Part shown: one piece after another, positions 8,836 through 33,259 of the stretch | Numbering within the stretch: position 1 is the first letter of the stretch | How the letters are laid out: the number at the start of each line of letters is the position of its first letter | Virus record (IMG/VR): IMGVR_UViG_3300025425_000029 | Coordinates: 1-51,825 of that record | Reading direction: 5' to 3' (one strand) | DNA from: a virus | Length of the DNA: 51,825 bases | Notes under the pieces: generated by a model | Seen by the model: only the letters and a program-made list of their open reading frames with translations | Database searches by the model: none | What the model was told of the DNA's origin: nothing | Translations under genes and position numbers: made by a program

Positions 8836-8869
8836 AAGGGTAACGTGTTTTTCACGTTACCCTTTTTTT
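8836..8869 (+). terminator. Rho-independent terminator
   Basis: AAGGGTAACGTG (8836-8847) pairs with CACGTTACCCTT (8853-8864) around a TTTTT loop and runs straight into a T-tract. It ends the transcript of the Myb-repeat gene. The 5' A-tract is short, so the main direction is plus. Confidence 0.9.
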
Positions 8870-12303: not shown

Positions 12304-15300
12304 ATGGCAGAAGTATGTTTTGTATTTGCTAGCGCATTAGAATCTAGACCACAGAGAATAATTGACAAATATCTTAAGGATGTACCTTATGATGTTAAAT
12401 ACTTGTGTTCTGGAGAAAAAGAGAAAATCCTAAAGAAAGATGTAGATCTTGACTTAGATGAGCTAGTAGGTTATAGAATTGTTGCACCTATAGGTGGAGA
12501 AGCATTAAAGTACGCAACGGGTATTACGGGTATTCAAAAGTATAATGGTATTTATGTTGAGAAGAAGTACCTTCCAATTATGCACCCTAATATTGTACTT
12601 ATTAAACCACAATTAGAAGACGATATTAAAAGAGCGTTTAATCAGATTCCCCGTATTCTAAGCGGCGAAGAGATGAATAAATCTCATGAAAAAGATTACT
12701 GCTTTATTGAGACACAAGTAGACTTCGAGAAATACCGTGTAGAAGTTGAAATGGCTTCAGTTATTGTTGCTGATATTGAGACAACAAGTGTGTCTCCCTA
12801 TACAGGTACCATTCTAGGTATTGCTGTATCAACCAAGCCTCACCAAGGTATTTATTATAGTATTGATGTAGTTCTAGCCAATAAAGAGTGGTTTCATAGA
12901 ATGTTCAAGACTAAGAAAGTAGTATTTCACAACGCTAAATTCGATATTTCATATATGATGTATGAGTTAGATTTCGAGTTCCCAGACTTTGAAGATACTA
13001 TGTTACTGCACTACTGCTTAGAGGAGTCTGTAGGTACTCACGGTCTTAAGCCTCTAGCTATGCGTTTTACTGATCTAGGTGACTATGAAAAAGACCTAGG
13101 TGACTATAAGAAAACATGGGCCAGAACTAATAAAGTCAAGCTTGCTGACTTTAATTACGGAATGCTGCCTAGCGATATCCTAGCACCTTATGCTTGCTTA
13201 ACTCATGATAGTAAAGTTATTATGGCTGACGGTAGTAAAAAAACTTTAGGGCAACTAGTTAGAAGTAAATCTACAGAGCTAGTACGTAGCTATAATCATA
13301 AACTAGATAAATGGGAGAATAAACCTATTAATGGGTGGTATTCAATAAGAGATAAAAATGTTGAATGGTTTAAAGTAGCTACCACAACTACCTCTAAAAA
13401 TAGCAGATGGGGTACGTATAATGGACCTGTGTTTACTAATGATCATAGAGTATCTACTAATAACGGATACAAACAAATACAAAATTTAGATAAAAAAAGC
13501 GATAGAATCCAAGTTAATGATTATACGTTTACTTACGATCAAAAACAAATTTTATTAGGCTCTTTATTAGGGGATGGAACTTTATCAAGTAGAAACTCTG
13601 TAGGTGCCGGTTTTGTATTCTCACAAGCAGATAAAAGATCTTTGTATTTTAGTCTGAAAGAAAAAGCTTTCGCAAATTATATAAATAATGTCGTATACGA
13701 TGCAGATAAAGAGTTACATACTTTTTATACTAAATACACAGAACAGTTTACTGACTTAAACAAATCAATAACTTGGAGACCTACATCGACTGATAAAAAA
13801 CCTTTTTTATCCGATAAATTCTTACATACTATTGATTGGTTAGCCTTAGCTGTGTGGTATTTTGATGATGGTAACAATGCCGATAATGCTTCATATAATA
13901 TGGGCAAACGTATCAGAATATGGTCTACGACAGTGTCGGTAGAAGAACAGAACAATCTTATAAAGTATTTACAAGAACGTTTTTCTATTAAAGCTCATTA
14001 TTTTGATGATGGAAACAACCAGTTCTTTGTAATTGAGAACTATGATCTATTTTTCAGAAATATAGCACAATACGCAACACCAGACTTGATGTATAAAATA
14101 CCTAGTAAGTATCATAAGCTAGTAAACTCTTATAAGTATGATTATTTACAGGCTGAACCTTATTTTGCTGAAATAGTTGAGGTAGTTGAATGGTCAACTA
14201 CTAGTAGAAAAGGTTATAAAACTAAATGGTGTATTGATGTAGAAAATAATCATAACTTTTTAACAGATGTAGGATTAGTACACAACTGTAAAGACGGCGA
14301 TGCTACTTTTCAGCTATTCAGTAAGTTTATGCCTTTAGTAGAGCGTAGTCCTGAATTTAGTAAGCTATACAGCACACTACTAAAGCCTGGTTCCTATGCT
14401 CTTCGCGCTCTTGAGCGTAATGGAGGACCAATTAACCGTGAGCAAGTAGAATGGTTATCAGAGCAGTACCGTATTGATATCGAAGAGTGTCTTGCAGAAA
14501 TTAGTCTTAATCCGCATGTTCAGCGTTTTGAGCGTATACATGGTAAGTCTTTTAATCCTAACTCTACAATGCAACTTAGAGAAGTATTCTTTACAATTAT
14601 GGGCTTGAAGCCTTCAAAAAAGACTGAGACAGGTGCTTGGTCTGTTGATAAAGAAGTTCTTAAAGCTTTAGAGAACCCTTTGTCAGAGGCAGTATTAGAC
14701 CTACGAGAAAAGTCAAAGATGTCTGGTACTTATATTAGTAACATCTTAAAAGGTTTAGACAATGATGGACGTCTTCGTAGTGGTTTTAACATTCACGGAA
14801 CTACTTCTGGTCGTCTAAGCTCTAGTGGTAATCTTAACTATCAGAATATCCCAAGAGATAATAAAGATATTAAGAAACTATTTAAAGCTCGTCCAGGGTA
14901 TAAGATTGTACAATGTGACCTTGGTACAGCGGAGGTATATTATGCTGCTGTACTAAGTGAAGATAAATTCCTACAACAAGCGTTTGTTGATAGGCTAGAC
15001 TTCCACTCATACGTCGCAAAACAGATGTTTAATCTAGACTGCGAAGTACACGAAGTTAAAAAACTATACCCTAATCAGAGACAATGGGCAAAAGCTATTA
15101 CCTTTGGTATTATGTATCAAGCTGGTCCTGCTAAGATTGCAGAAACAGTAAATAAAGATGCTAAACCTGGTGAAGGTATTACAGCAGCGCAGGCTAAGCA
15201 GTTTATTGCTAAGTACTTTAAAGAAGCTAATATGCTTAAAAAGTATATTGATAAGTCTAACTCACAAATCGAAAACTATGCTTATATCTATGCGTTCTTT

Positions 15301-15666
15301 GGTAGAAAGCGTAGACTCCCAGAAGCTAAAGCTCCTAATCCAGGTGTTGCAAAGCATGCTATTCGATCAGGAGTTAACTTCTTAGTTCAATCAGTAGCTT
15401 CTGATGTTAACATCTTTGGTTTAATTGATCTAGTAGATTGGATTGAGGAAAACAACCTAGAGAATGACATTCTACCTTTCACAGTAGTTCATGACTCAAT
15501 TGTATCAGAAGTAAGAGAAGACTTAGTGCCTATGTACATCAAAAATACTAAGGCAATGATCCAAAAAGATAGAGGTTTATCTATTCCAGGGTGCCCTATC
15601 AACGTAGATTTTGAGATTGGTGATAGTTGGGGCGACCTAACAGACGAAAGCGATTACTTTGCGTAA
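12304..15666 (+). CDS. polA: Family A DNA polymerase (Pol I) with intein
   Basis: Replicative polymerase with 3'-5' proofreading. The exonuclease domain has Exo I VADIETT (Asp157, Glu159), Exo II VVFHNAKFDISY and an Exo III motif split by an intein: Tyr296 lies before it and Asp664 after it, giving YACKD when joined. The polymerase domain shows motif A QCDLGTAE (Asp872), motif B KAITFGIMYQ (Lys930, Phe934) and motif C VVHDSIVSE (Asp1064). The precursor is 1120 residues; removing residues 298-661 leaves 756, normal for phage Pol I without a 5'-3' exonuclease, which is encoded separately at 28419. Ribosome site AAGGAA, start ATG at 12304. It overlaps the next gene by 8 bases. Confidence 0.95.
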   Translation: MAEVCFVFASALESRPQRIIDKYLKDVPYDVKYLCSGEKEKILKKDVDLDLDELVGYRIVAPIGGEALKYATGITGIQKYNGIYVEKKYLPIMHPNIVLIKPQLEDDIKRAFNQIPRILSGEEMNKSHEKDYCFIETQVDFEKYRVEVEMASVIVADIETTSVSPYTGTILGIAVSTKPHQGIYYSIDVVLANKEWFHRMFKTKKVVFHNAKFDISYMMYELDFEFPDFEDTMLLHYCLEESVGTHGLKPLAMRFTDLGDYEKDLGDYKKTWARTNKVKLADFNYGMLPSDILAPYACLTHDSKVIMADGSKKTLGQLVRSKSTELVRSYNHKLDKWENKPINGWYSIRDKNVEWFKVATTTTSKNSRWGTYNGPVFTNDHRVSTNNGYKQIQNLDKKSDRIQVNDYTFTYDQKQILLGSLLGDGTLSSRNSVGAGFVFSQADKRSLYFSLKEKAFANYINNVVYDADKELHTFYTKYTEQFTDLNKSITWRPTSTDKKPFLSDKFLHTIDWLALAVWYFDDGNNADNASYNMGKRIRIWSTTVSVEEQNNLIKYLQERFSIKAHYFDDGNNQFFVIENYDLFFRNIAQYATPDLMYKIPSKYHKLVNSYKYDYLQAEPYFAEIVEVVEWSTTSRKGYKTKWCIDVENNHNFLTDVGLVHNCKDGDATFQLFSKFMPLVERSPEFSKLYSTLLKPGSYALRALERNGGPINREQVEWLSEQYRIDIEECLAEISLNPHVQRFERIHGKSFNPNSTMQLREVFFTIMGLKPSKKTETGAWSVDKEVLKALENPLSEAVLDLREKSKMSGTYISNILKGLDNDGRLRSGFNIHGTTSGRLSSSGNLNYQNIPRDNKDIKKLFKARPGYKIVQCDLGTAEVYYAAVLSEDKFLQQAFVDRLDFHSYVAKQMFNLDCEVHEVKKLYPNQRQWAKAITFGIMYQAGPAKIAETVNKDAKPGEGITAAQAKQFIAKYFKEANMLKKYIDKSNSQIENYAYIYAFFGRKRRLPEAKAPNPGVAKHAIRSGVNFLVQSVASDVNIFGLIDLVDWIEENNLENDILPFTVVHDSIVSEVREDLVPMYIKNTKAMIQKDRGLSIPGCPINVDFEIGDSWGDLTDESDYFA
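13195..14286 (+). mobile_element. Intein with LAGLIDADG homing endonuclease in Pol I
   Basis: A 364-residue self-splicing insert in the polymerase. It begins with Cys1 (CLTHDSKVIMADGSKK, block A), has the block B pattern in VFTNDHRVSTNNGYKQ, two LAGLIDADG motifs (LLGSLLGDGTL and LALAVWYFDDGN), block F with WCIDVENNHNFL, and ends VHN followed by Cys662 as the +1 residue. All four splice-site residues (Cys1, block B histidine, terminal His-Asn, +1 Cys) are present, so it should splice. Its arginine codons are mostly AGA, while the flanking polymerase prefers CGT or CGN, a sign of later arrival. The two LAGLIDADG acidic residues look intact, so endonuclease activity is plausible. Confidence 0.93.
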
Positions 15667-18550: not shown

Positions 18551-19374
18551 AAAAATCATTAGCAGATATGAAAACTAATTCTTCTTCTGCTAACACAAAA
18601 GTAAAAGCACCGGAGCAAAAACGCTTCGGTGCTTTTACTAGTGTAGAAGAAGGTAAAGCGACTATAGACATGGATATGCTTAGAAAGCATAATGTTTTCT
18701 TTGCTACACCTTGTTACGGAGGTATGCTAACAGATCAGTTCTTTCTAAGTATGTTACGAACTTCTCAAACAATGATGAATCAAGGAATTAACTTTAGAGT
18801 AACAACATTACGTAACGAAAGTTTAATCACTAGAGCTAGAAATATTATGGTTGCTATGTTTTTAAATAGTGACTGCACGCATTTAATGTTTATTGATGCA
18901 GATATTGAGTTCCAACCTGACGATATTATAAGAGCCTTAGCATATGATAAGCCTATTTTAGCGGGTGCTTACCCTAAAAAAGCTCTTCCAGTACAGTACG
19001 CAATTAACTTTAAATTTGCAGATAAAGAGAAACGACAGGTTAGATCAGAAAATGGTATTGTAGAAGTACTAGATGCTTCTACTGGTTTCTTCTTAATTAA
19101 ACGAGAAGTTATTGAGAAAATGGTTCAACACTTTCCAGAGCTTCATTATAAGAATGATTCAAATATTGATGAAAACTTAAATAAGTATTGCTATGCGTTA
19201 TTTGATACAATCCTTGACCCTGTTGATAACAGATACTTATCAGAGGATTATACTTTCTGTAGACGCTGGCAACAAATGGGTGGGGAAATCTGGTTAGACC
19301 CTAATACAAAACTAAATCACATAGGTTCTTACACCTTTGAAGGTGATGTTGGTAAGATTATAGGACAGAATTAA
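18547..19374 (+). CDS. Glycosyltransferase-like protein in the replication operon
   Basis: GT-A fold transferase of about 275 residues. The conserved part starts near residue 41 (HNVFFATPCYGGMLTDQFF), with LITRARNIMVAMFL, a DxD motif in MFIDADIEF, an ILAGAYPKK strand and a late YLSEDYTFCRRWQQMGG segment holding the ED pair of GT2-like enzymes. The first 40 residues are low-complexity and are encoded across a strong terminator-like hairpin. The ATG at 18547 overlaps the SSB stop as ATGA; an ATG at 18670-18680 (MDML) would give a protein starting just before the fold. Being next to SSB and not in the sugar cassette, it might glycosylate DNA or a replication-stage protein, but this is inference. 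Confidence 0.65.
   Translation: MKKSLADMKTNSSSANTKVKAPEQKRFGAFTSVEEGKATIDMDMLRKHNVFFATPCYGGMLTDQFFLSMLRTSQTMMNQGINFRVTTLRNESLITRARNIMVAMFLNSDCTHLMFIDADIEFQPDDIIRALAYDKPILAGAYPKKALPVQYAINFKFADKEKRQVRSENGIVEVLDASTGFFLIKREVIEKMVQHFPELHYKNDSNIDENLNKYCYALFDTILDPVDNRYLSEDYTFCRRWQQMGGEIWLDPNTKLNHIGSYTFEGDVGKIIGQN
18601..18641 (+). terminator. Terminator-like hairpin after SSB, inside the glycosyltransferase gene
   Basis: GTAAAAGCACCGGAGC (18601-18616) pairs with GCTTCGGTGCTTTTAC (18623-18638): 16 pairs, one G-T wobble, loop AAAAAC. The GC-rich core is flanked by A-tract and T-tract like a bidirectional rho-independent terminator, though the T-run is only four bases. It lies 50 bases past the SSB stop and within codons 19-31 of the next ORF. 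Confidence 0.6.
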
Positions 19375-19943
19375 TGACAGTAATTATCGCATATAAAGAA
19401 CATGGTAAAGTATACATGGGAGGTGATGCAGGTGCAACTTCTGGGTCAAGCACTAGAGCTTCAAAACTAGAAAAGGTATTCACTATTGGAGATGAGTTTC
19501 TAATTGGATATACTTCTTCTTTTAGGATGGGACAAATTATTGAGCACTGTTTTAAGCCCCCAAATTATAAAGAAGGTGCATCTATTCAGAAATACTTAGT
19601 GTCTTCATTTGTACCTAAACTTACAGCAGTTCTAGAAAAACATAACTTTCTAGTATTCAAAGACAATGAAGCTATTGGTGGTACTTTTCTTCTGGGTTTT
19701 AAAGGCAAGATCTTTGAAATTGGTTCAGATATGCAAGTAAACGAGTTTAAAGAAAACTACCATGCGGTAGGTTCAGGAGAAAGATACGCTCTTGGTGCTC
19801 TACATGCAATGTCTCATGACTCTAAAATCGTCCCAAAAGAAAGGCTTACAGCAGCGTTTGAGGCTTCTGCACACTTTACAAACTCCGTTTGTGGTCCTTT
19901 TACTATCAAATCAGTAGATGCAGGTGTGACCACTAAGAAATAA
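19374..19943 (+). CDS. Proteasome beta/HslV-like Ntn-hydrolase
   Basis: A phage protein with the fold signature of the proteasome beta/HslV family. After Met1 the sequence begins Thr-Val-Ile-Ile-Ala-Tyr; Thr2 would be the N-terminal nucleophile once Met is removed. With Thr as residue 1, GGDAGAT places Asp at 17 and KLEKVF places Lys at 33, the catalytic Asp17/Lys33 of the family. A GSG-containing loop (YHAVGSGERYALGAL) matches the Ser129/Gly region. 189 residues, close to HslV. No HslU or unfoldase is seen nearby; it may work alone or with a host ATPase. One-base overlap with the upstream glycosyltransferase. Substrate unknown. Confidence 0.75.
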   Translation: MTVIIAYKEHGKVYMGGDAGATSGSSTRASKLEKVFTIGDEFLIGYTSSFRMGQIIEHCFKPPNYKEGASIQKYLVSSFVPKLTAVLEKHNFLVFKDNEAIGGTFLLGFKGKIFEIGSDMQVNEFKENYHAVGSGERYALGALHAMSHDSKIVPKERLTAAFEASAHFTNSVCGPFTIKSVDAGVTTKK

Positions 19944-20133
19944 GCAACTCCGTTGCTTACCTAACTCAGCTTCGCTGAAGGCGCTATAAAAGACTTAACA
20001 ACTCCGTTGTAGCGCTTTCCGCAAGCTGTTGAAACATTGTGCAACACTTTTCGGTAGGTTATTTTACGTACCTAATATTAATAGCACGAAATTGCAGCAC
20101 TGTGCAAGATATAAAATATGCAAGGAACAGTAA
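19941..20133 (+). ncRNA. Hairpin-rich non-coding stretch (possible structured RNA)
   Basis: The 190-base gap is filled by inverted repeats. TAAGCAAC (19941-19948) pairs perfectly with GTTGCTTA (19952-19959), loop TCC; TCAGC/GCTGA flanks TTC at 19966-19978; an outer stem GAAGGCGCTA (19977-19986) with TAGCGCTTTC (20010-20019) encloses ACAAC/GTTGT (19998-20010), again with loop TCC. Further: TGTTG/CAACA (20027-20046), TAGGT/ACCTA (20056-20074) and TTGCA/TGCAA near 20092-20107. CAACTCCGTTG occurs twice. There is no convincing terminator T-run and no long ORF. A ribosome site (CAAGGAA) precedes MazG. Confidence 0.45.
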
Positions 20134-20475
20134 ATGAAAGAAATTACATGGAATTATTTAAATGCTAAGAATGCAGAACGTCAGTTATATTGGGTAGGTT
20201 CTGATAAAATTGATCTAGCCTTCTTAGGTTTAGAGATTGGTGAAGAAGCAGGTGAAGTACAGGGCGCTCTTAAAAAACTTATTCGTCATAGAGATAAGAT
20301 TGATGGAAATTCAGCTTCTCATGAAGAACTACGAGCAAAACTAAATTCAGAAATTGGTGATCTAATTATCAATATTTCAAGACTTGCTAATGCGCTAGAT
20401 CTAGATGTAGATCAATGTATTCGTACAGCTTTTGATAATAAGAGTATTAAACTTAGTATTAATGTAAACCTATGA
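20134..20475 (+). CDS. mazG: MazG-like nucleotide pyrophosphohydrolase
   Basis: An all-alpha NTP pyrophosphatase, about 113 residues, with the two metal-binding helices of the family: LGLEIGEEAGEVQGALKK (E-x2-E-E pattern) and LNSEIGDLIINISRLANALD (E-x2-D), then a C-terminal FDNKSIKLS segment. It would hydrolyse NTPs or dNTPs, perhaps (p)ppGpp, and fits the nucleotide-metabolism genes of this phage. It follows the structured non-coding stretch and overlaps the SbcD-like gene by 4 bases (ATGA). Confidence 0.85.
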   Translation: MKEITWNYLNAKNAERQLYWVGSDKIDLAFLGLEIGEEAGEVQGALKKLIRHRDKIDGNSASHEELRAKLNSEIGDLIINISRLANALDLDVDQCIRTAFDNKSIKLSINVNL

Positions 20476-21440
20476 AAATACTAAGTAGCGCTGATTGGCA
20501 TATCAATCTACATAAAAAGAAAATCCCTGCTAGCTGGCAGATGAATCGTTATCAGTTGATGTATGACAAGTTATATGCTCTTGAAAAAGAGTGTGATGTT
20601 CATGTTATTGCAGGAGATCTATTTGATGAAATCCCTAAGACAGATGATGTAAGCCTGCTATTATCCTTCTTAAACTCAGTCTCTATTCCTACTCTTGTAA
20701 TTCCTGGTAATCATGAAGCTACTCGTAAAGGAAAGAGCTTCTGGGAACACTTTAAGCTGCATAATACAATTAAGAACCCTCTAGTATCTATATCAGTAGA
20801 AAATGAACGTATTTTCCTCGGTGGTGGAACGTTTAGTACATTTCCTTATGGCAGTGTTCAGACCGATAATCTTCCTAAACATCATAAAAACGACATTTTA
20901 GTCACACACATTAGAGGTGAAGTGCCTCCGCATATTACCGCAGAGTATGATTTCGAACGTCTTCGCCCTTGGGAGCTAGTTTTACTGGGTGATCTACATT
21001 TTAATCATAAGTATAAAGACTATAGCATTTATTACCCTGGGTCTCCTGTTAATACTACTTTCGATAGAAACCCAAAACATCGCTATGGTGTAGATATTAT
21101 TACTGTTGATCCTGATAATGTTGCTGACCATTCAGTTAGTTTTGTTGACCTTGAGTTACCAAAGTTGCTTAGACGTACTGTTTCTGTTGGCGAAGAACTA
21201 ATCGCTGACCCAGTTCATCACGCAATTTATGAGGTTACAGGCTCTATTGATGAGATTGCTAGTGTTCAAAAGTCTCCGTTGCTGGATAAGAAGATGGTAA
21301 TTAATAAGAGTACAGAATCTACACTTAATTTAAAAGATAAGAGCATAGTAGAAGAGCTACAAATATGGATGAACCATATAGGTATAAAGAACCAAGAGCA
21401 AGTGCTTTCGAGGTTCAATGAGTTAGGAATTAGAGAATGA
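20472..21440 (+). CDS. SbcD/gp47-like recombination nuclease subunit
   Basis: Metallophosphoesterase-type nuclease of the Mre11/SbcD/T4 gp47 family. Motifs: SADWHINLH (Asp8, His10), IAGDLFDE (Asp49), PGNHEATRKG (Asn80, His81), and later VTHIRGE, LLGDLHFNH and YYPGSPVNTTFD, covering the phosphoesterase motifs. About 322 residues. With SbcC-like ATPase it would process DNA ends for recombination or replication. The start overlaps MazG, and its end overlaps the SbcC-like gene as in other phage and bacterial pairs, so the two should be co-translated. Confidence 0.9.
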   Translation: MKILSSADWHINLHKKKIPASWQMNRYQLMYDKLYALEKECDVHVIAGDLFDEIPKTDDVSLLLSFLNSVSIPTLVIPGNHEATRKGKSFWEHFKLHNTIKNPLVSISVENERIFLGGGTFSTFPYGSVQTDNLPKHHKNDILVTHIRGEVPPHITAEYDFERLRPWELVLLGDLHFNHKYKDYSIYYPGSPVNTTFDRNPKHRYGVDIITVDPDNVADHSVSFVDLELPKLLRRTVSVGEELIADPVHHAIYEVTGSIDEIASVQKSPLLDKKMVINKSTESTLNLKDKSIVEELQIWMNHIGIKNQEQVLSRFNELGIRE

Positions 21441-23305: not shown

Positions 23306-25432
23306 ATGCTAACAATTGGAAAAAGTCCAATTCATTTTAAGTTCAAAAAGGACTTTAAGAGTTCATTTTTGAAACAAGAAGTACACTGGGGGTTCGGTGG
23401 TCTTTCTGCGTTTACTTATTACAGAACCTATTCCCGTAAAAAAGAAAATGGTAAGATGGAAAACTGGAACGATACTGTCGTTCGAGTTGTAGAAGGTATG
23501 TTTTCTATTCTAAAAACTCATGCTATTACATCTGAACATACATGGGATGAAAAACGTGCACACAAACTTGCAGAAGAGTGTGCTCAGCGGCTATTTGAAT
23601 TCAAATGGACACCTCCGGGTCGTGGTCTATGGATGATGGGAACTCCGTTTGTTCACGAAAAGGGTGGAGCGGCTCTAAATAACTGCGGATTCGTATCTAC
23701 CGAAGATATTGATGCAGAAATGTCTAAACCATTCGCGTTTCTCATGGATATGAGTATGGTGGGTGTAGGCGTAGGTTTCGACACTAAAGGTGCAGGTAAG
23801 ATTGCTTCTTGTATCCCAGAAGGCGATATCGAAGTTATCACTGTTGAAGATTCTCGTGAAGGTTGGGTAGAGCTAATTTCTTGCCTAATTGATTCGTATT
23901 TAGAAGAAGGTTCTAACCCTGTTGGACACGATACTTCTTTAGTACGTGGTTATGGTGAGCCTATTGTAGGTTTTGGTGGCGTAGCTTCTGGTCCCGAACC
24001 TCTAATTCAGGGTTTTAATGGTATTAAAGCTATCCTAGAGATTCGTGCTCTATCAGCTAGTCCATTACTTACTTCCGTAGATATTACAGATATTATGAAT
24101 ATCATCGGTAAAGTAGTAGTTGCAGGTAATGTTCGTCGTACCGCAGAGATCGCATTTGGGGAACCAGATGATTACGAATTTGCTAATATGAAGAACTGGA
24201 AAGACTTTGGTGTAGAAACTGGTAGTGCCGCACCACCTGAGCTTGCAGCAATTAATAAACAAGACTTCGACGATTATAACGCCTTTAAGCGTCAGTCTGA
24301 AATCGCTAAAAAGTATGCTGATTATGATTGGTCTTACAAGTTTGGTGGATGGCGCTGGGCTAGTAACAATAGTATCTTTGCTAAGTTAGGTATGGATTAT
24401 ACTAAAGTATCTGAAAGTGTAGCTACTAACGGTGAACCAGGTTTTGCATGGTTAGAAAATATGCAAGCTTATAGTCGTATGAAAGACCCACCAGACCATA
24501 AAGACTATCGTGTTCGTGGAGGTAATCCATGTTTAGAACAGTCTCTTGAGCCTTATGAGCTATGCTGCCTTGTAGAGACTTTCCCAGCAGTACACGATGA
24601 TTACTGGGACTACCAGAGAACTCTAAAATTTGCCTATCTCTATGCAAAAACTGTCACTCTTATGCCTACGCATTGGAGAGATACGAATGATGTTATTAAA
24701 CGTAATCGTAGAATTGGTACATCGCAAAGCGGTATCCAGGACGCTATGCTAAAGTTTGGTCGTAGACGTTATCTTACTGAGTTCTGTGATAGAGCCTATA
24801 GCTATATCTCATACCTAGACCAAAAGTACTCGGAATGGATGGGAGTACCTCTATCAATCAAAAGAACTAGTGTAAAACCTTCAGGAACAGTATCTCTAGT
24901 AGCTGGCTCTTTACCAGGTATTCACTATGCTGAATCTGAGTCTTACTATAGATTAGTCAGAGTAGCAAGTAATAGTGCTCTAATACCTATCCTACAAGAA
25001 TCAGGATACCGTATTGAGGAAGCTGCAAGTGATCCTATTAGAACGGCAGTTATTTACTTCCCAGTACTTCACCCGGTAGGTACAATCTCTAAGAAAGATG
25101 TGTCTATTTGGGAACAGTTTGCTAACGCAGCTGATATGCAGTACTATTGGGCAGATAACCAAGTATCTATTACTATCACTTTCAACGAGCATGAAAAAAG
25201 CCAAATTGCAAGAGCACTTAGCTGTTACGATACTAGGCTAAAAGGTGTATCACTACTTCCTATTAGTGAGCATGGATACGTTCAAGCACCTTATACGCCT
25301 GCACCAAGAGAAGAAATTGAAGCCTATGCAGCAACTCTATCTCCTCTTAACTTTGCAGCGTTAAGTGATCTAGAAGAAGGTGAAGATGCAGACGCTAATA
25401 AGTTCTGTGACTCTGATGGATGCGTAATATAA
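23306..25432 (+). CDS. Class II (adenosylcobalamin) ribonucleotide reductase, monomeric type
   Basis: Reduces ribonucleotides to deoxyribonucleotides using coenzyme B12. The length (708 residues) and the order match the monomeric RTPR class: WTPPGRGLWMMGTP, the first redox cysteine in NNCGFVST, a VAGNVRRTAE strand, the radical-site NPCLEQSLEP (Asn407, Cys409, Glu411), KPSGTVSLVAGSLPGIHYAE, and a C-terminal redox CDSDGC pair. It needs no small subunit or oxygen. AAGGAG precedes ATG at 23306. It starts the nucleotide-metabolism block and its end overlaps the DUF1289 gene by 13 bases. B12 must come from the host, which suggests a host able to make or import it. Confidence 0.95.
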   Translation: MLTIGKSPIHFKFKKDFKSSFLKQEVHWGFGGLSAFTYYRTYSRKKENGKMENWNDTVVRVVEGMFSILKTHAITSEHTWDEKRAHKLAEECAQRLFEFKWTPPGRGLWMMGTPFVHEKGGAALNNCGFVSTEDIDAEMSKPFAFLMDMSMVGVGVGFDTKGAGKIASCIPEGDIEVITVEDSREGWVELISCLIDSYLEEGSNPVGHDTSLVRGYGEPIVGFGGVASGPEPLIQGFNGIKAILEIRALSASPLLTSVDITDIMNIIGKVVVAGNVRRTAEIAFGEPDDYEFANMKNWKDFGVETGSAAPPELAAINKQDFDDYNAFKRQSEIAKKYADYDWSYKFGGWRWASNNSIFAKLGMDYTKVSESVATNGEPGFAWLENMQAYSRMKDPPDHKDYRVRGGNPCLEQSLEPYELCCLVETFPAVHDDYWDYQRTLKFAYLYAKTVTLMPTHWRDTNDVIKRNRRIGTSQSGIQDAMLKFGRRRYLTEFCDRAYSYISYLDQKYSEWMGVPLSIKRTSVKPSGTVSLVAGSLPGIHYAESESYYRLVRVASNSALIPILQESGYRIEEAASDPIRTAVIYFPVLHPVGTISKKDVSIWEQFANAADMQYYWADNQVSITITFNEHEKSQIARALSCYDTRLKGVSLLPISEHGYVQAPYTPAPREEIEAYAATLSPLNFAALSDLEEGEDADANKFCDSDGCVI

Positions 25433-25599
25433 AGTCTCCATGTATACAACAATGCACACTCCTTAAGGGGGTGTGCATTGGCTGTTATAGAACACAAGAT
25501 GAAATTAGAGAGTGGTTTATAGCAGATGATGATAGAAAAACTCAAATCTTAAAGGATATAGAATGCCGAAAATACTGGTTAACCTATGCTAATAACTAA
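25420..25599 (+). CDS. DUF1289-family cysteine protein
   Basis: A 59-residue ORF overlapping both neighbours. It starts MRNIKSPCIQQCTLLKGVCI and continues GCYRTQDEIREWF, the exact DUF1289 pattern (SPC-x3-C...CxGC-x-RT-x-x-EI-x-x-W), a small protein predicted to bind an iron-sulfur cluster through four cysteines (Cys8, Cys12, Cys19, Cys22). In bacteria it accompanies diverse genes; its role is unknown. A stable hairpin lies in its early codons. Next to RNR and glutaredoxin it might have a redox or cluster-related role. Confidence 0.8.
   Translation: MRNIKSPCIQQCTLLKGVCIGCYRTQDEIREWFIADDDRKTQILKDIECRKYWLTYANN
25450..25480 (+). other. 13-bp hairpin after the RNR gene
   Basis: CAATGCACACTCC (25450-25462) pairs with GGGGTGTGCATTG (25468-25480), one G-T wobble, five-base loop TTAAG. 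It sits in the DUF1289 coding sequence 18 bases after the RNR stop, with no following T-run. It might set the 3' end or stability of RNR mRNA. Confidence 0.6.
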
Positions 25600-26520
25600 A
25601 AACGTATTATCGAATAACAATAGAAGATTTGCTTATTATAAATCTCTGAACAAGATTAAAACAGAAGGAGGCTACGTAGTTAATCCTGAAGATTTAGGGG
25701 ATGGTAGCCATCAAAAAGTTATTATAACATGTGATTCACAAAAATCAGAAAAATGTTTAAATATAGTAGAAAGGGAATGGAGACAAGTAAGTAAACAAAG
25801 AGATAGAACGAACGGTAAAGATTACTGTATGTTTTGTCAAAAAACGGAAGAATTTTCTGGGAGAAATAATCCTAACAGCAAATATATTTTTGATGATTCT
25901 TTTTTCTGTAATATAGATTCACCTGAAAAAGCTTATCTATTAGGTTGGATAGCGAGCGACGGCACTATAGCAAAAAGTAGTATAACTATTGCAATAAGAG
26001 ATTACGACGTCAGTACTCTGATCGATTTACGTAATATTATATGCAACGAATTACCTATCAGAGATAAAAGTAATTTAAAATCTCTTACCATAAGCTCTAC
26101 AGAAATAGTTAAAGATGTGTTGCGTCATCTTGGTTTGAAAACCTACGGAAAAAAAGATACTGCTATACAATTTCCTACAATAAAAAAAGAATTAGAAGTT
26201 TATTTTATTAGAGGTTTTTTCGATGGTGACGGTTCTGTAAATAAACACGATAGAAGACCAAGAGTATCTATAAGTTCTAACTCAGTGAGTATCTTAAATA
26301 GCTTAAAAAGTATTATAGGGTGTGGTAATGTGTATACAAGCAATAATCAATCAGTATGGGAGGTTAACCAAGCTAAAAAAGCTTTAGAATTTTTAGCTTG
26401 GTTATACGAAGATAAGAATGTTCCTTACTTACGTAGAAAGTATGAGATTTATTTAGACCTATCTTCGTGGGTTCCTTCATTATCAGGTGCAGATTCCTAT
26501 AGAAATTTTAATTTAGGTCC
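25586..26520 (+). mobile_element. LAGLIDADG homing endonuclease inserted at the dUTPase start
   Basis: The endonuclease part is a mobile homing gene joined in frame to dUTPase. It lacks Cys1 at the start and His-Asn plus Cys/Ser/Thr at the junction, so it is not a classical intein; nor is there room for a group I intron core outside coding sequence. AGGAG at 26521-26525 with an ATA codon eight bases later (26534, where ATG would encode MNKSRKDAILPK) looks like the old dUTPase start. A second candidate is ATG at 25563 with AAAGGA before it, giving a nine-codon ORF starting MPKILVN. Confidence 0.6.
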
Positions 26521-26941
26521 AGGAGTAATTAAAATAAACAAAAGTAGGAAAGATGCAATTTTACCTAAAATATCTGATATTCACGCGTCTGGTATTGATT
26601 TACATTTAATTGATAAAGTAAAAGACTTTGGGCCAAATACTGTATTGTATACAACAGGATTAAAAGTACAACCACCTATGGGTTATTATTTTGATTTAGT
26701 TCCGAGAAGCAGTATTAGTAAAACGTCTTTTATGCTGGCTAATAGTGTAGGTATAATTGACGAAAACTACATTGGGGAAGTTATGGTAGCTTTGTATAAT
26801 TACGGTAAAGATGAAATAGATTTCCCTTCTAGGCTTGTTCAATTAGTTTTACGGAAAAAATATGCCTTTGAAGTAGTAGAGGTTGAAGACCTAGAAGAAA
26901 CAGCTCGTGGTGAGTTAGGTTTCGGTTCTACAGGAGTATAA
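25586..26941 (+). CDS. Homing endonuclease-dUTPase fusion
   Basis: One 451-codon frame holds two proteins. Residues 1-305 form a LAGLIDADG homing endonuclease: a four-cysteine finger (Cys49, Cys57, Cys81, Cys84), a NUMOD3-like SGRNNPNSKY, LAGLIDADG motif 1 (YLLGWIASDGT, 117-127) and motif 2 (YFIRGFFDGDGSV, 206-218). Residues 314-451 form a complete trimeric-type dUTPase: motif 1 ASGIDL (334-339), motif 2 PRSSISK, motif 3 NSVGIIDENYIGE with catalytic Asp392, motif 4-like SRLVQLVL and motif 5 RGELGFGSTG (441-450). dUTPase makes dUMP for ThyA and keeps dUTP out of DNA. No intein splice residues are visible. The whole frame starts in the DUF1289 gene; a free dUTPase could also start inside it. 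Confidence 0.85.
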   Translation: MLITKNVLSNNNRRFAYYKSLNKIKTEGGYVVNPEDLGDGSHQKVIITCDSQKSEKCLNIVEREWRQVSKQRDRTNGKDYCMFCQKTEEFSGRNNPNSKYIFDDSFFCNIDSPEKAYLLGWIASDGTIAKSSITIAIRDYDVSTLIDLRNIICNELPIRDKSNLKSLTISSTEIVKDVLRHLGLKTYGKKDTAIQFPTIKKELEVYFIRGFFDGDGSVNKHDRRPRVSISSNSVSILNSLKSIIGCGNVYTSNNQSVWEVNQAKKALEFLAWLYEDKNVPYLRRKYEIYLDLSSWVPSLSGADSYRNFNLGPGVIKINKSRKDAILPKISDIHASGIDLHLIDKVKDFGPNTVLYTTGLKVQPPMGYYFDLVPRSSISKTSFMLANSVGIIDENYIGEVMVALYNYGKDEIDFPSRLVQLVLRKKYAFEVVEVEDLEETARGELGFGSTGV

Positions 26942-27920: not shown

Positions 27921-28373
27921 ATGAGTTCTGCAAGTAAACTTAAAGGCTCTGCCTATGAAGCTAAGCTTAAGGACATTCTCAACAAAGAGTTTCCCTCTAT
28001 ACAGTTTGAGCGTGTCCCTCTAAGTGGGGCAATATCGTACCTAAAAGGAGATTTATGGACTCCTCATGACACTGCTGCTTGGCCTTGGTGTATAGAGGCT
28101 AAGCACTATAAAGAAGTCAAATGGGACAATTTACTTACAGCTAAGTCATCTGATCTACATAGCTTCTGGGCCCAGACTATAAGAGAAGCAGAAGTTATGA
28201 AGAAAAGACCTTTACTTATGTTTAGGTGGAACCGTTCTAAAGATTTCGTTGCCTTTGACGATCATATACAGGTTGATTCTTATGTAGAGATTAACTCTTT
28301 TGGTAATAAATTTAAAATCGCGCTACTAGACGATTGGTTAAAGGCAGTTAAAAGTCAAACTAATCTTGCCTAA
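27921..28373 (+). CDS. PD-(D/E)XK nuclease, possible Holliday junction resolvase
   Basis: A 150-residue protein with SKLKGSAYEAKLKDILN at the start (Glu in the first helix), FERVPLSGA, then LKGDLWTP and a CIEAKHY segment, giving the D...E-x-K active site of PD-(D/E)XK nucleases such as archaeal-type resolvases. Further conserved-looking parts are SFWAQTIREAEV and RPLLMFRWN. It would cut branched DNA made during recombination and replication, matching the SbcCD and UvsW-like genes. The exact substrate is inferred from family resemblance. Confidence 0.65.
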   Translation: MSSASKLKGSAYEAKLKDILNKEFPSIQFERVPLSGAISYLKGDLWTPHDTAAWPWCIEAKHYKEVKWDNLLTAKSSDLHSFWAQTIREAEVMKKRPLLMFRWNRSKDFVAFDDHIQVDSYVEINSFGNKFKIALLDDWLKAVKSQTNLA

Positions 28374-28394
28374 TGCTTAATATTATGCTAATAT
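28366..28394 (+). promoter_or_regulatory. Promoter before the exonuclease gene
   Basis: TTGCCT (28366-28371), 17 bases, TAATAT (28389-28394), overlapping the upstream stop codon. The stretch CCTAATGCTTAAT and downstream ATTAAGTATAGAAACAAGG closely repeat the element at 5442-5485. The repeated body between and after the hexamers suggests a shared regulator or a recent duplication. Confidence 0.55.
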
Positions 28395-28418
28395 TAAGTA
28401 TAGAAACAAGGAATAACA

Positions 28419-29264
28419 ATGTCAAAAGAGTGGAATGATTTAGCAGACTTGGAACAAGCTGTTAATGACTATGCAGATTTTAATAATCTACTATTAATCG
28501 ATTCAAATAACGTAGCATATCGTTATTTACATCGTAAAAACTATGACTCTTACCAAGAGGATTATCAAAGAACATTATCTTCTTTAGCTAAATCATATAA
28601 AGCTAAAAGAACTATTGCTTGCTTTGACTTTGGTAAGAGTTACTACCGTCTAGCTATGTTAGAGGATTATAAAGGCACTCGTAAAAAGCCAGATACTCAA
28701 GAAGAGATTGATAGAGCAGAAGCTTTCTTCACTGTTTTAAATGAGCTTCCAGATACATTATACGAGGAAACTCTTAAACATAGGGGTGTAGAAGCAGACG
28801 ATTTAATTGCTTATCTAGCGATTAATCTAAAAGAAGAATACGATCATGTATGGATTGTTTCTTCTGATAAAGACTTAATTCAACTAGTTGATGATAATGT
28901 GTCTATCTTTTCTATTTTTAGCCGTAAAGAGATTACTGCTGATAGTCTATATAATGATCTAGGATTGAGTCCTTCGCAGTTTATGCTTTCTAGAATTATT
29001 GAAGGCGATAAAGGCGATAACATTATTGGTATTGAGGGTATCGGCCCTAAACGTGCCCAAGCTTTAGCTAAAGAGTATGGAACTTTTGAGAATCTAATGA
29101 GGGCTTTACCAATTCCTGGTAAGTCTAAATTTATTCAAAATCTAAATGCAGGTGTAGATAAGCTTATTGAGAACGAGAAGCTAATCAATTTACATAGCTA
29201 CCACGAGCAAGCTATTGAGGCTGGTAAGGACGAAGACGTCCTAGATATTCTGGCTGAGCTGTAA
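28419..29264 (+). CDS. 5'-3' exonuclease (FEN/T5 type)
   Basis: Flap endonuclease/5'-3' exonuclease of 281 residues. Motifs: LLLIDSNNVAYRY at the N-terminus, IACFDFGKSYYR, LKHRGVEADDLIAYLA with the metal-binding acids, WIVSSDKDLIQL, then GDKGDNIIGIEGIGPKRAQA, the helix-hairpin-helix segment that binds DNA. It removes RNA primers and flaps, the activity missing from the phage Pol I. It has its own promoter and an AAGGAATAACA site. The gap to DHFR is 131-158 bases and holds a hairpin. Confidence 0.92.
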   Translation: MSKEWNDLADLEQAVNDYADFNNLLLIDSNNVAYRYLHRKNYDSYQEDYQRTLSSLAKSYKAKRTIACFDFGKSYYRLAMLEDYKGTRKKPDTQEEIDRAEAFFTVLNELPDTLYEETLKHRGVEADDLIAYLAINLKEEYDHVWIVSSDKDLIQLVDDNVSIFSIFSRKEITADSLYNDLGLSPSQFMLSRIIEGDKGDNIIGIEGIGPKRAQALAKEYGTFENLMRALPIPGKSKFIQNLNAGVDKLIENEKLINLHSYHEQAIEAGKDEDVLDILAEL

Positions 29265-30789: not shown

Positions 30790-30819
30790 AAAAAGGGGAA
30801 GCTAACGCTTCCCCTTTTT
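30790..30819. terminator. Bidirectional rho-independent terminator
   Basis: AAAAGGGGAAGC (30791-30802), loop TAAC, GCTTCCCCTTTT (30807-30818), with A-tract on the left and T-run on the right, so it can end transcripts from both strands. It separates the rightward replication block from the convergent tail block. Confidence 0.95.
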
Positions 30820-32143: not shown

Positions 32144-33259
32144 TTAAGCAATTCTTCTGTATAAAGTAAGATAATAGATGTACTCAGAACTAAAATATGT
32201 TTGTCCGTGAGAGCTCACACCTATTGATTCCCATGTAGTGCCTGCAGCTTGATTAATTGTTGCCCCATCGACTGTTGAGCCCATAGCAGTACTTATACCA
32301 TACATAGTGATTTGGCCGATCTCAGTTCTTGCTACAAGTCCATAAGCTTGGCTAATTGCTACGTTAGCTAATTGATTATTGTCTACATATGCCTTAACGG
32401 ATTGTTGAGAAGGAACCCTGCCCGCCGAATCAGAAGACATATCATCTTCGTCAATAATCGTGGTAGTGGCGACATTTCCTAGCCCTAAGGCAGTACGTTG
32501 CTCTGATTCACTAGTAGCTACTAAAAGATTAGCACCAGGTAATGTAACACCGTCTAAAGCATTTAGCTCTGTTGCCGTTGCTGTTAATGTAGTAGACCCA
32601 ATTATAATATTAGCTACTGTTATGTCCGCTGCTGTAAGTTTTCTATTAAAAGTAACATCTTCTGTAACTATACCAGTACCTACAATATGTAAAGCGTGAG
32701 AAGGAGAATTAGTACCAACAGCAACATTTGTAGTTGCTAAAGTTCTGATAGACCTAATACTCTGTCCGGAAAAGGTTACGTTATCGTTTGTACCTACTGA
32801 ATATCCTTGAGGCGCACCAACGTCCAGTACACTGGACATATCAGCAGCATTTGAAGTAATAAGATAAAGTCTAGCGTTATCTTTTATACCAGCTGCCTCA
32901 GATACTGTTGCTACTAGCTCTCCTATCTCATAAGAAGCAATATTAGCAGCTAGAGCTACTATACCATTTTCTACTCTATTTCCAACACCAATTCTTGTAA
33001 AGTTTCCACCTACAGGAGAAGACTTTACATGTATACTATCAGATATATAAAGAGCGTTTGTAGTTGCACTTCGGTATAGCATCCCGTCCACTTCTCCAAG
33101 ATTATCACCAGCTGCGATAATATTAACAGTAGTTGGCGCACCAGCTGACTTAAAGTTTCCTAGCAAAGCTCTTAGAGAGTTATTATACTGAGCTCTTGAG
33201 CTGTTAATAGCACTAGCGCTAGTAGGTTCGATATATGTGTTTGCTTGAGTTAAAGCCAT
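32144..33259 (-). CDS. Tail fibre-like protein
   Basis: A 371-residue fibre protein following J. It has an N-terminal helical anchor-like segment (SSRAQYNNSLRALLGNFKS), beta-rich middle (MLYRSATTNALYISDSI), repeat-like TLTATATELNALDGVTLPG and the common fibre motif SAGRVPSQQSVKAYVDNNQL, and ends in a beta tip (HGQTYFSSEYIYYLTLYRR). It would attach to the J-containing tail tip and contact the host. No chaperone or peptidase domain was seen. It stops one base before J begins in its transcript. Confidence 0.7.
   Translation of the reverse strand: MALTQANTYIEPTSASAINSSRAQYNNSLRALLGNFKSAGAPTTVNIIAAGDNLGEVDGMLYRSATTNALYISDSIHVKSSPVGGNFTRIGVGNRVENGIVALAANIASYEIGELVATVSEAAGIKDNARLYLITSNAADMSSVLDVGAPQGYSVGTNDNVTFSGQSIRSIRTLATTNVAVGTNSPSHALHIVGTGIVTEDVTFNRKLTAADITVANIIIGSTTLTATATELNALDGVTLPGANLLVATSESEQRTALGLGNVATTTIIDEDDMSSDSAGRVPSQQSVKAYVDNNQLANVAISQAYGLVARTEIGQITMYGISTAMGSTVDGATINQAAGTTWESIGVSSHGQTYFSSEYIYYLTLYRRIA

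Follow-up and report, generated by a model that had tools for sequence, protein, structure and literature searches.

Background

To our knowledge, functional DNA hairpins driven by supercoiling have been proven in few systems, with phage N4 as the textbook case. At the complementary-strand origin of phage G4 and at the ssi site of RSF1010, hairpins at set distances are read by primase. T4 origins are built from a promoter and an R-loop, and we know of no tandem hairpins among their features. The put sites of HK022 are a pair of adjacent stem-loops in front of an operon and act as RNA in the sense orientation. One study describes the C-GNA-G loop as an extraordinarily stable DNA mini-hairpin (PMC4686876). 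According to a second study, the N4 early promoters use the same GNA fold, which is extruded by gyrase-made supercoiling and tolerates changes in the stem if pairing is kept (PMC4496689). T4 UvsW and origins are treated in PMC5180179.

Here we describe a hairpin module in a 51,825-base IMG/VR virus record, analysed over its whole length and called the window below. Like the G4 and RSF1010 sites, the module holds a few small hairpins at set distances; unlike them, it occurs in large double-stranded DNA siphovirus-like contigs, and the likeness is one of description, with priming hypothetical. Like T4 origins, it has a promoter-like box next to A+T-rich DNA; unlike them, it has tandem hairpins, and easy strand opening at the module is weakly indicated. 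Compared by description, HK022 put also resembles the module in having two adjacent stem-loops ahead of an operon, but works as sense RNA, whereas the module is antisense to the flanking genes in three elements. Extruded GNA hairpins are of a known kind; the arrangement and the phage group are new.

The locus and its genes

The window derives from an uncultured, T5-like bacterial virus. An HslV-like (proteasome-type) gene (19374-19943, + strand), whose 3' end overlaps the module, is separated by a gap (19944-20133) from a MazG-like gene downstream (20134-20475, + strand). Next come an SbcD-like nuclease gene (T5 D12; 20472-21440, + strand), which in relatives is the usual gene downstream of the module, and an SbcC-like gene. 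Gene order was T5-like and conserved throughout the relatives compared, and judged by this order the phage has a D10/UvsW-like helicase. Homologues of the HslV-like and MazG-like genes were absent from the nine large relative contigs compared. Among SbcD relatives in viral contigs (best 80 of 109), none was found in the available stretches, one near-identical contig aside. This near-twin differs at a single base over 5 kb and is therefore uninformative on selection. Control of MazG translation by the hairpins had initially been suggested as something to test. Such control is unlikely because six of the nine large relatives carry the module and have no MazG or HslV-like homologue, and it was rejected as the main reading.

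The family A DNA polymerase ORF of the window (12304-15666, 1120 aa) contains a LAGLIDADG domain (residues 414-577) between its exonuclease and polymerase parts, which is probably an intein. A dUTPase ORF (25586-26941) is fused to LAGLIDADG-type domains, probably as an intein or homing endonuclease insertion. The class II (B12-dependent) ribonucleotide reductase (23306-25432) is 79% identical to that of the large relative G013 while the SbcD proteins are 58% alike, so the reductase was likely transferred separately. Long perfect hairpins at 30790-30819 (13 bp) and 8836-8864 (12 bp) are terminator-like.

Hairpins of the window

The conserved element starts near 19878, within the HslV-like ORF, and ends near 20107; 19941-20133 forms its core. 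The preliminary description had placed a dense hairpin region at 19941-20133. Its hairpins were present, but these limits proved too narrow, since the module hairpin ACAAACTCCGTTTGT (19878-19892, + strand) lies within the 3' end of the HslV-like ORF. In the closest relatives (L104, L005 and L007) its match is the first hairpin. Still within this ORF, GATGCAGGTGTGACC (19917-19931, + strand) is the counterpart of the GACRCA-N4-TGACG box at the family's 5' edge. Hairpin H1, TAAGCAACTCCGTTGCTTA (19941-19959, + strand), has 8 bp and a C-TCC-G core and, as first noted, begins on the TAA stop of ORF 19374-19943. The second hairpin of the tandem pair, TCAGCTTCGCTGA (19966-19978, + strand), has a C-TTC-G core, its loop lying 22 nt past that of H1. 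Further on, the hairpin ACAACTCCGTTGT followed by AGCGC (19998-20015, with the hairpin at 19998-20010, + strand) is the counterpart of CAACTACGTTGTAGCGC in L104. The outer stem of the earlier account corresponds to a long imperfect stem (19967-20028, + strand) that includes G-U pairs and could compete with the small hairpins. The sequence TAATAGCAC (20079-20087, + strand) is the counterpart of the TAGCAT/TAGCAC box at the family's 3' edge, and a small inverted repeat, TTGCAGCACTGTGCAA (20092-20107, + strand), has A+T-rich DNA after it.

Perfect inverted repeats in the gap numbered six against 1.8 expected, and as many were found in 20 of 500 shuffles. Exact matches to CAACTCCGTTG occurred at 19945-19955 and 19999-20009, with no others in the window even at one mismatch; because two matches were reached in 5 of 100 shuffles, this repeat is by itself only mildly unusual. 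The shorter core AACTCCGTT had four matches against 0.18 expected, a number reached in none of 100 shuffles. One tandem C(TNC)G pair was found in the window and none in 100 window shuffles. Folding of the + strand over 19930-20150 gave -55.4 kcal/mol (z -3.47), equalled in 0 of 200 shuffles, while the - strand fold of the same stretch was not exceptional (z -1.20; as good in 25 of 200). On the - strand at 28340-28500, the 3' part of the module may recur as a partial second copy (TTAATATTAGCATA; weak profile match, E 0.0028).

The module in relatives

Dozens of IMG/VR contigs, from viruses many of which are only distantly related, share the module, with two hairpins (H1 and H2) about 20-23 nt apart and a third beyond them. 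In the main group it is about 170-200 nt long and begins with the GACRCA-N4-TGACG box, H1, about 7 nt, H2 and a short RCGYTA-like box, the H1 and H2 loops being separated by 20-22 nt in most cases. TGTTCA-containing repeats around the third hairpin, CACCTGCGGTG, come next, and then the TAGCAT box, often with a small inverted repeat and A+T-rich DNA after it. Some boxes outside the stems are conserved too. Stems vary (for H1, they include GGCAAC, GGAAC, GCGAAC, GCGCAC, GAGCAC, ATGCGC, GGGAAC and GGAGAC; for H2, GTCTC, CGGCAC, GGGCGC, TGTCAC and TGCCAC) while the loop frame C-TNC-G is near-invariant, with C-TNT-G in a few of the closest relatives. A C-TNC-G frame on one strand means C-GNA-G on the other.

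A profile built from five relatives (L104, L005, L007, L003 and L004; window excluded) matched the window at 19878-20092 with E 6.8e-16. The window copy was also reached from single relatives (L007, E 2.1e-12; L104, E 4.6e-9), and L004 as sole query gave no match at the site. With the window excluded, the main-group profile had its best window match at the same place, at a marginal E of 0.039, and the window was not among the matches of a 3'-half profile. The window's link to the family passes via its closer relatives L003, L005, L007 and L104. Judged by these matches, the window is a member of a more distant subgroup that comprises it and those four.

CTCCG or CTACG cores were present in 44 of 45 H1 and 45 of 45 H2 hairpins, in sequences mostly chosen for such cores. 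We also counted hairpins at loci selected by SbcD protein only (from the best 80 of 109 relatives). Many of them had hairpins of the C-TNC-G kind upstream of sbcD. Among triloop hairpins of at least 6 bp in 78 such loci, CTCCG ranked first (34), followed by AAAAT (17) and CTACG (15). On the sbcD strand, 79 loci held 55 C(TNC)G hairpins of at least 6 bp versus four C(GNA)G, and 44 of the 79 had at least one C(TNC)G hairpin. Inspection of 22 loci that lacked the pair found no noncoding gap of at least 60 nt upstream of sbcD in the available stretch, which was short in several.

Pairing is kept by compensating changes

Alignment A1 kept 36 of 51 distinct elements, leaving out L119 (cut off), L004 and L067 (other spacing) and near-duplicates. 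In these 36 elements 98.4% of cells were paired, against at most 41.4% when partners were slid, and 31 cells showed two-sided changes against 4.0 in shuffles. The elements of A1, and most of a 45-element set, were picked for perfect 5-bp H1 and H2 stems, and the near lack of G-U pairs in both sets is therefore partly by construction. Helix 3 and contigs chosen by a flank are thus the fairer tests. Helix 3, which was not used in choosing sequences, had 95.8% of cells paired and two-sided changes in four of four pairs, and RNAalifold, run unguided, recovered helices 2 and 3.

In a fresh scan, contigs were chosen solely by a 26-base flank, TGTTCAACAGCTNTTCACCTNCGGTG, from the third-hairpin region. 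All 28 contigs so chosen carried the H1 and H2 tandem pair, in 23 distinct upstream stretches that included several unrelated perfect stems. H1 loops lay 54-58 nt and H2 loops 34-36 nt upstream, and the stems were pure Watson-Crick. By contig names about nine of the 28 were new, the rest overlapping contigs already in the set. Conservation, compensated stems, near-fixed spacing, the conserved core and the strand bias were all computed directly. On these sequence comparisons, the hairpins belong to a conserved module with compensating stems. A lack of conserved pairing in relatives, which the preliminary description had named as half of the grounds for abandoning its proposal, was not what we found, because relatives keep the pairing through such changes.

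Copy number, position and orientation

Six of the nine large relatives (G001-G006), like the window, carry one tandem pair per contig; it was not found in the other three (G011, G012 and G013). In most large relatives the module lies ahead of sbcD and within the replication gene block. In G002 and G003 the pair lies elsewhere, amid oppositely directed genes, with gene order kept. A further copy in G002, a partial one, lies at 78 kb and precedes a small regulator gene. Among 51 elements, 40 had the same sense as both neighbours and eight the same sense as the one visible neighbour; three (L184, L187 and L152) were opposite to both flanking genes. The single tandem pair in six large relatives and the window, and the indifference to gene direction in these three elements, are likewise direct computations.

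Other hairpin arrays were observed in a few relatives. In L003 (2326-2404), three head-to-tail 32-nt units each hold a CTAAACTTCGTTTAG hairpin in an iteron-like arrangement. L121, L128 and L147 have up to five TGTCTCTCCGAGACA-type hairpins at a spacing of about 40-60 nt, outside the module context.

No match to the module was found in the databases searched for known elements. The window had no Rfam 15 match at the gathering threshold and its hairpin region none to E 5. Six relatives searched to E 1 gave only two weak CsrC matches, away from the element. No tRNA or tmRNA was found either. Cultured phages had no DNA match to window positions 19374-20480 or to the element of L012, and the three pattern matches in bacterial genomes did not fit the family profile (best E 0.2). 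T5 has no module between D11 and D12, just a terminator, and a single stray hairpin in 28 kb. We found no description of such a module in the open-licence PMC literature.

Comparison with N4 promoters

Applied to the first 8 kb of N4, the same scan found just three hairpins, all of them + strand (at 90, 557 and 4546); we take them to be the early promoters P1-P3. Promoters for the N4 vRNAP (Schitoviridae) and the module have in common a short C-GNA-G triloop hairpin on one strand, and in both the stem bases can change if they remain paired. As at N4 promoters, it is the strand serving as template for the downstream gene that carries the triloop, in 28 of 28 flank-chosen contigs. However, the N4 hairpin is single whereas those of the module are tandem. 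The second stem pair is G-C in N4 (-8G) and A-T, T-A or C-G in the module, where G-C was found in only 1 of 45 H1 and 2 of 45 H2 hairpins. The loop centre (-11) is a purine in N4 and often not in the module; it was T in 15 of 45 H1 and 13 of 45 H2 hairpins, and H3 loops of TGC or TAC give C or T at this position. The N4 mini-vRNAP domain was detected in 0 of 10 virus records and a T7-like RNA polymerase (PF00940) in 0 of 14 relatives, records that may be fragments; the N4 control matched in the first search and T7 and N4 in the second. Membership of the N4 promoter class was thus rejected on the base requirements and the absence of the polymerase from the records searched.

Function of the module

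We consider it likely that the module acts as folded DNA of some kind. The C-GNA-G core, the N4 control, the Watson-Crick stems and the three antisense elements all favour this, and we infer that DNA rather than RNA is the folded strand. The module is probably not a small RNA but a folded-DNA switch from which the viral genome begins to be copied or read. We rank a replication origin as the most likely function, with a hairpin-controlled promoter as a close rival and an RNA element third.

Our tentative preference, held with rather less than even confidence, is a cis-acting folded-DNA site of origin type that would initiate DNA replication. Under negative supercoiling or strand opening, the - strand would fold into a row of two to four short C-GNA-G mini-hairpins. 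Their shape and spacing, along with the GACRCA/TGACG, TGTTCA and TAGCAT boxes on the flanks, would be recognised by a phage protein (a primase, helicase loader, SSB or D5-like DNA-binding protein). Reading of the module by this putative protein would start replication rather than transcription there, at a site usually found at an operon boundary ahead of the SbcCD genes. Origins are expected to be noncoding repeat sites, few or unique, near replication genes; the tandem pair occurs once in each of six of nine large contigs and in the window, within the replication gene block in most. A relocatable initiation site would also suit G002 and G003, because the module lies elsewhere in them while gene order is kept. 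The iteron-like units of L003 count in its favour as well. G-C skew tracks gene direction and did not shift where the element lies, either in G001, G002, G004 and G005 or in the window, and this measure may not fit the replication mode. In duplex stability, the weakest 60 bp near the element ranked in the lowest 1.5-4% of each contig and was not the minimum. Neither measure lends support to an origin. If the module is an origin, G011-G013 must use another, because they have no tandem pair. No initiator protein was identified. An origin-only view is further opposed by most copies lying directly upstream of a same-strand gene, which suits a promoter too.

Such a promoter, which we regard as somewhat unlikely, would have host RNA polymerase start at TTCAC-N16/17-TAGCAT (-35/-10-like), with extruded hairpins and upstream boxes binding an activator from the phage, or an SSB, which would set the timing of the SbcCD operon as N4 SSBs do. 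Most of the 45 elements have TTCAC 16-17 nt from TAGCA[T/C], and the downstream start codon often follows TAGCAT by about 20 nt, which would give a short untranslated leader. G001, G005 and G006 each have this pattern a single time, at the element, and the searched part of G004 has none. However, the window copy lacks it, the one match in the window being at 32507, and TAGCAC loses the last -10 base. L184 and L187, which face both flanking genes, keep the hairpins and a TAACAC box without a -35-like box at promoter distance. The rho-independent terminator that T5 has at the corresponding boundary between operons is in favour of a promoter here, and also of the module being the intrinsic terminator of the upstream operon. 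The latter is the least probable reading we weighed and was rejected. In agreement with the preliminary description, which saw no simple terminator here, the gap at 19944-20133 has no terminator-like site with a G+C-rich hairpin and T-run, and preservation of a tandem C(TNC)G pair and of boxes on its flanks is not what one expects of a terminator.

The initial proposal of a phage RNA, in the form of a + strand leader or small RNA that a protein of the phage or the host would bind at the hairpins, is not the best reading and appears unlikely. It is favoured by the window's + strand RNA fold (z -3.47 vs -1.20 for the - strand) and by the mostly sense orientation (48 of 51 elements relative to the visible neighbour gene or genes), and paired helices with two-sided changes would suit it also. 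Yet the C-GNA-G core is a DNA mini-hairpin loop, the scan that found it recovers N4's DNA promoter hairpins, and stems in the least biased set, the 28 flank-chosen contigs, are pure Watson-Crick. Three elements run antisense to their flanking genes, which argues against a plain mRNA leader. Conserved boxes outside the stems and the lack of an Rfam family match also count against RNA. Instead of initiating anything, the module might serve recombination, mobility or packaging, in the manner of oriT-like or REP-like palindromes, which we judge highly unlikely. The different placement of the tandem pair in G002 and G003 is compatible with mobility, as is a similar pair just before a relaxase-like gene (by translation) in a small Deefgea salmonis contig (L233:1684-1713). 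The Deefgea pair, possibly an oriT feature and possibly chance, is nevertheless outside the family profile, whose match on that contig (E 1.7) lies elsewhere, and no transposase or relaxase was found beside the module in the window.

We think it close to an even question whether the module represents a class of folded-DNA initiation site that has not been described before, is common among uncultured siphoviruses of the T5-like type and acts as a replication origin or master promoter. In such a class, GNA mini-hairpins extruded by supercoiling would stand in a row at fixed spacing, and the physical principle of N4 promoters would be combined with a different, putative phage reader protein. If true, this would show regulation by folded DNA in another branch of phages, a large uncultured group. 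It would also help in learning where and how T5-like phages begin replication or set the timing of their nuclease genes, and the natural stem variants could be used for testing shape-only recognition of DNA.
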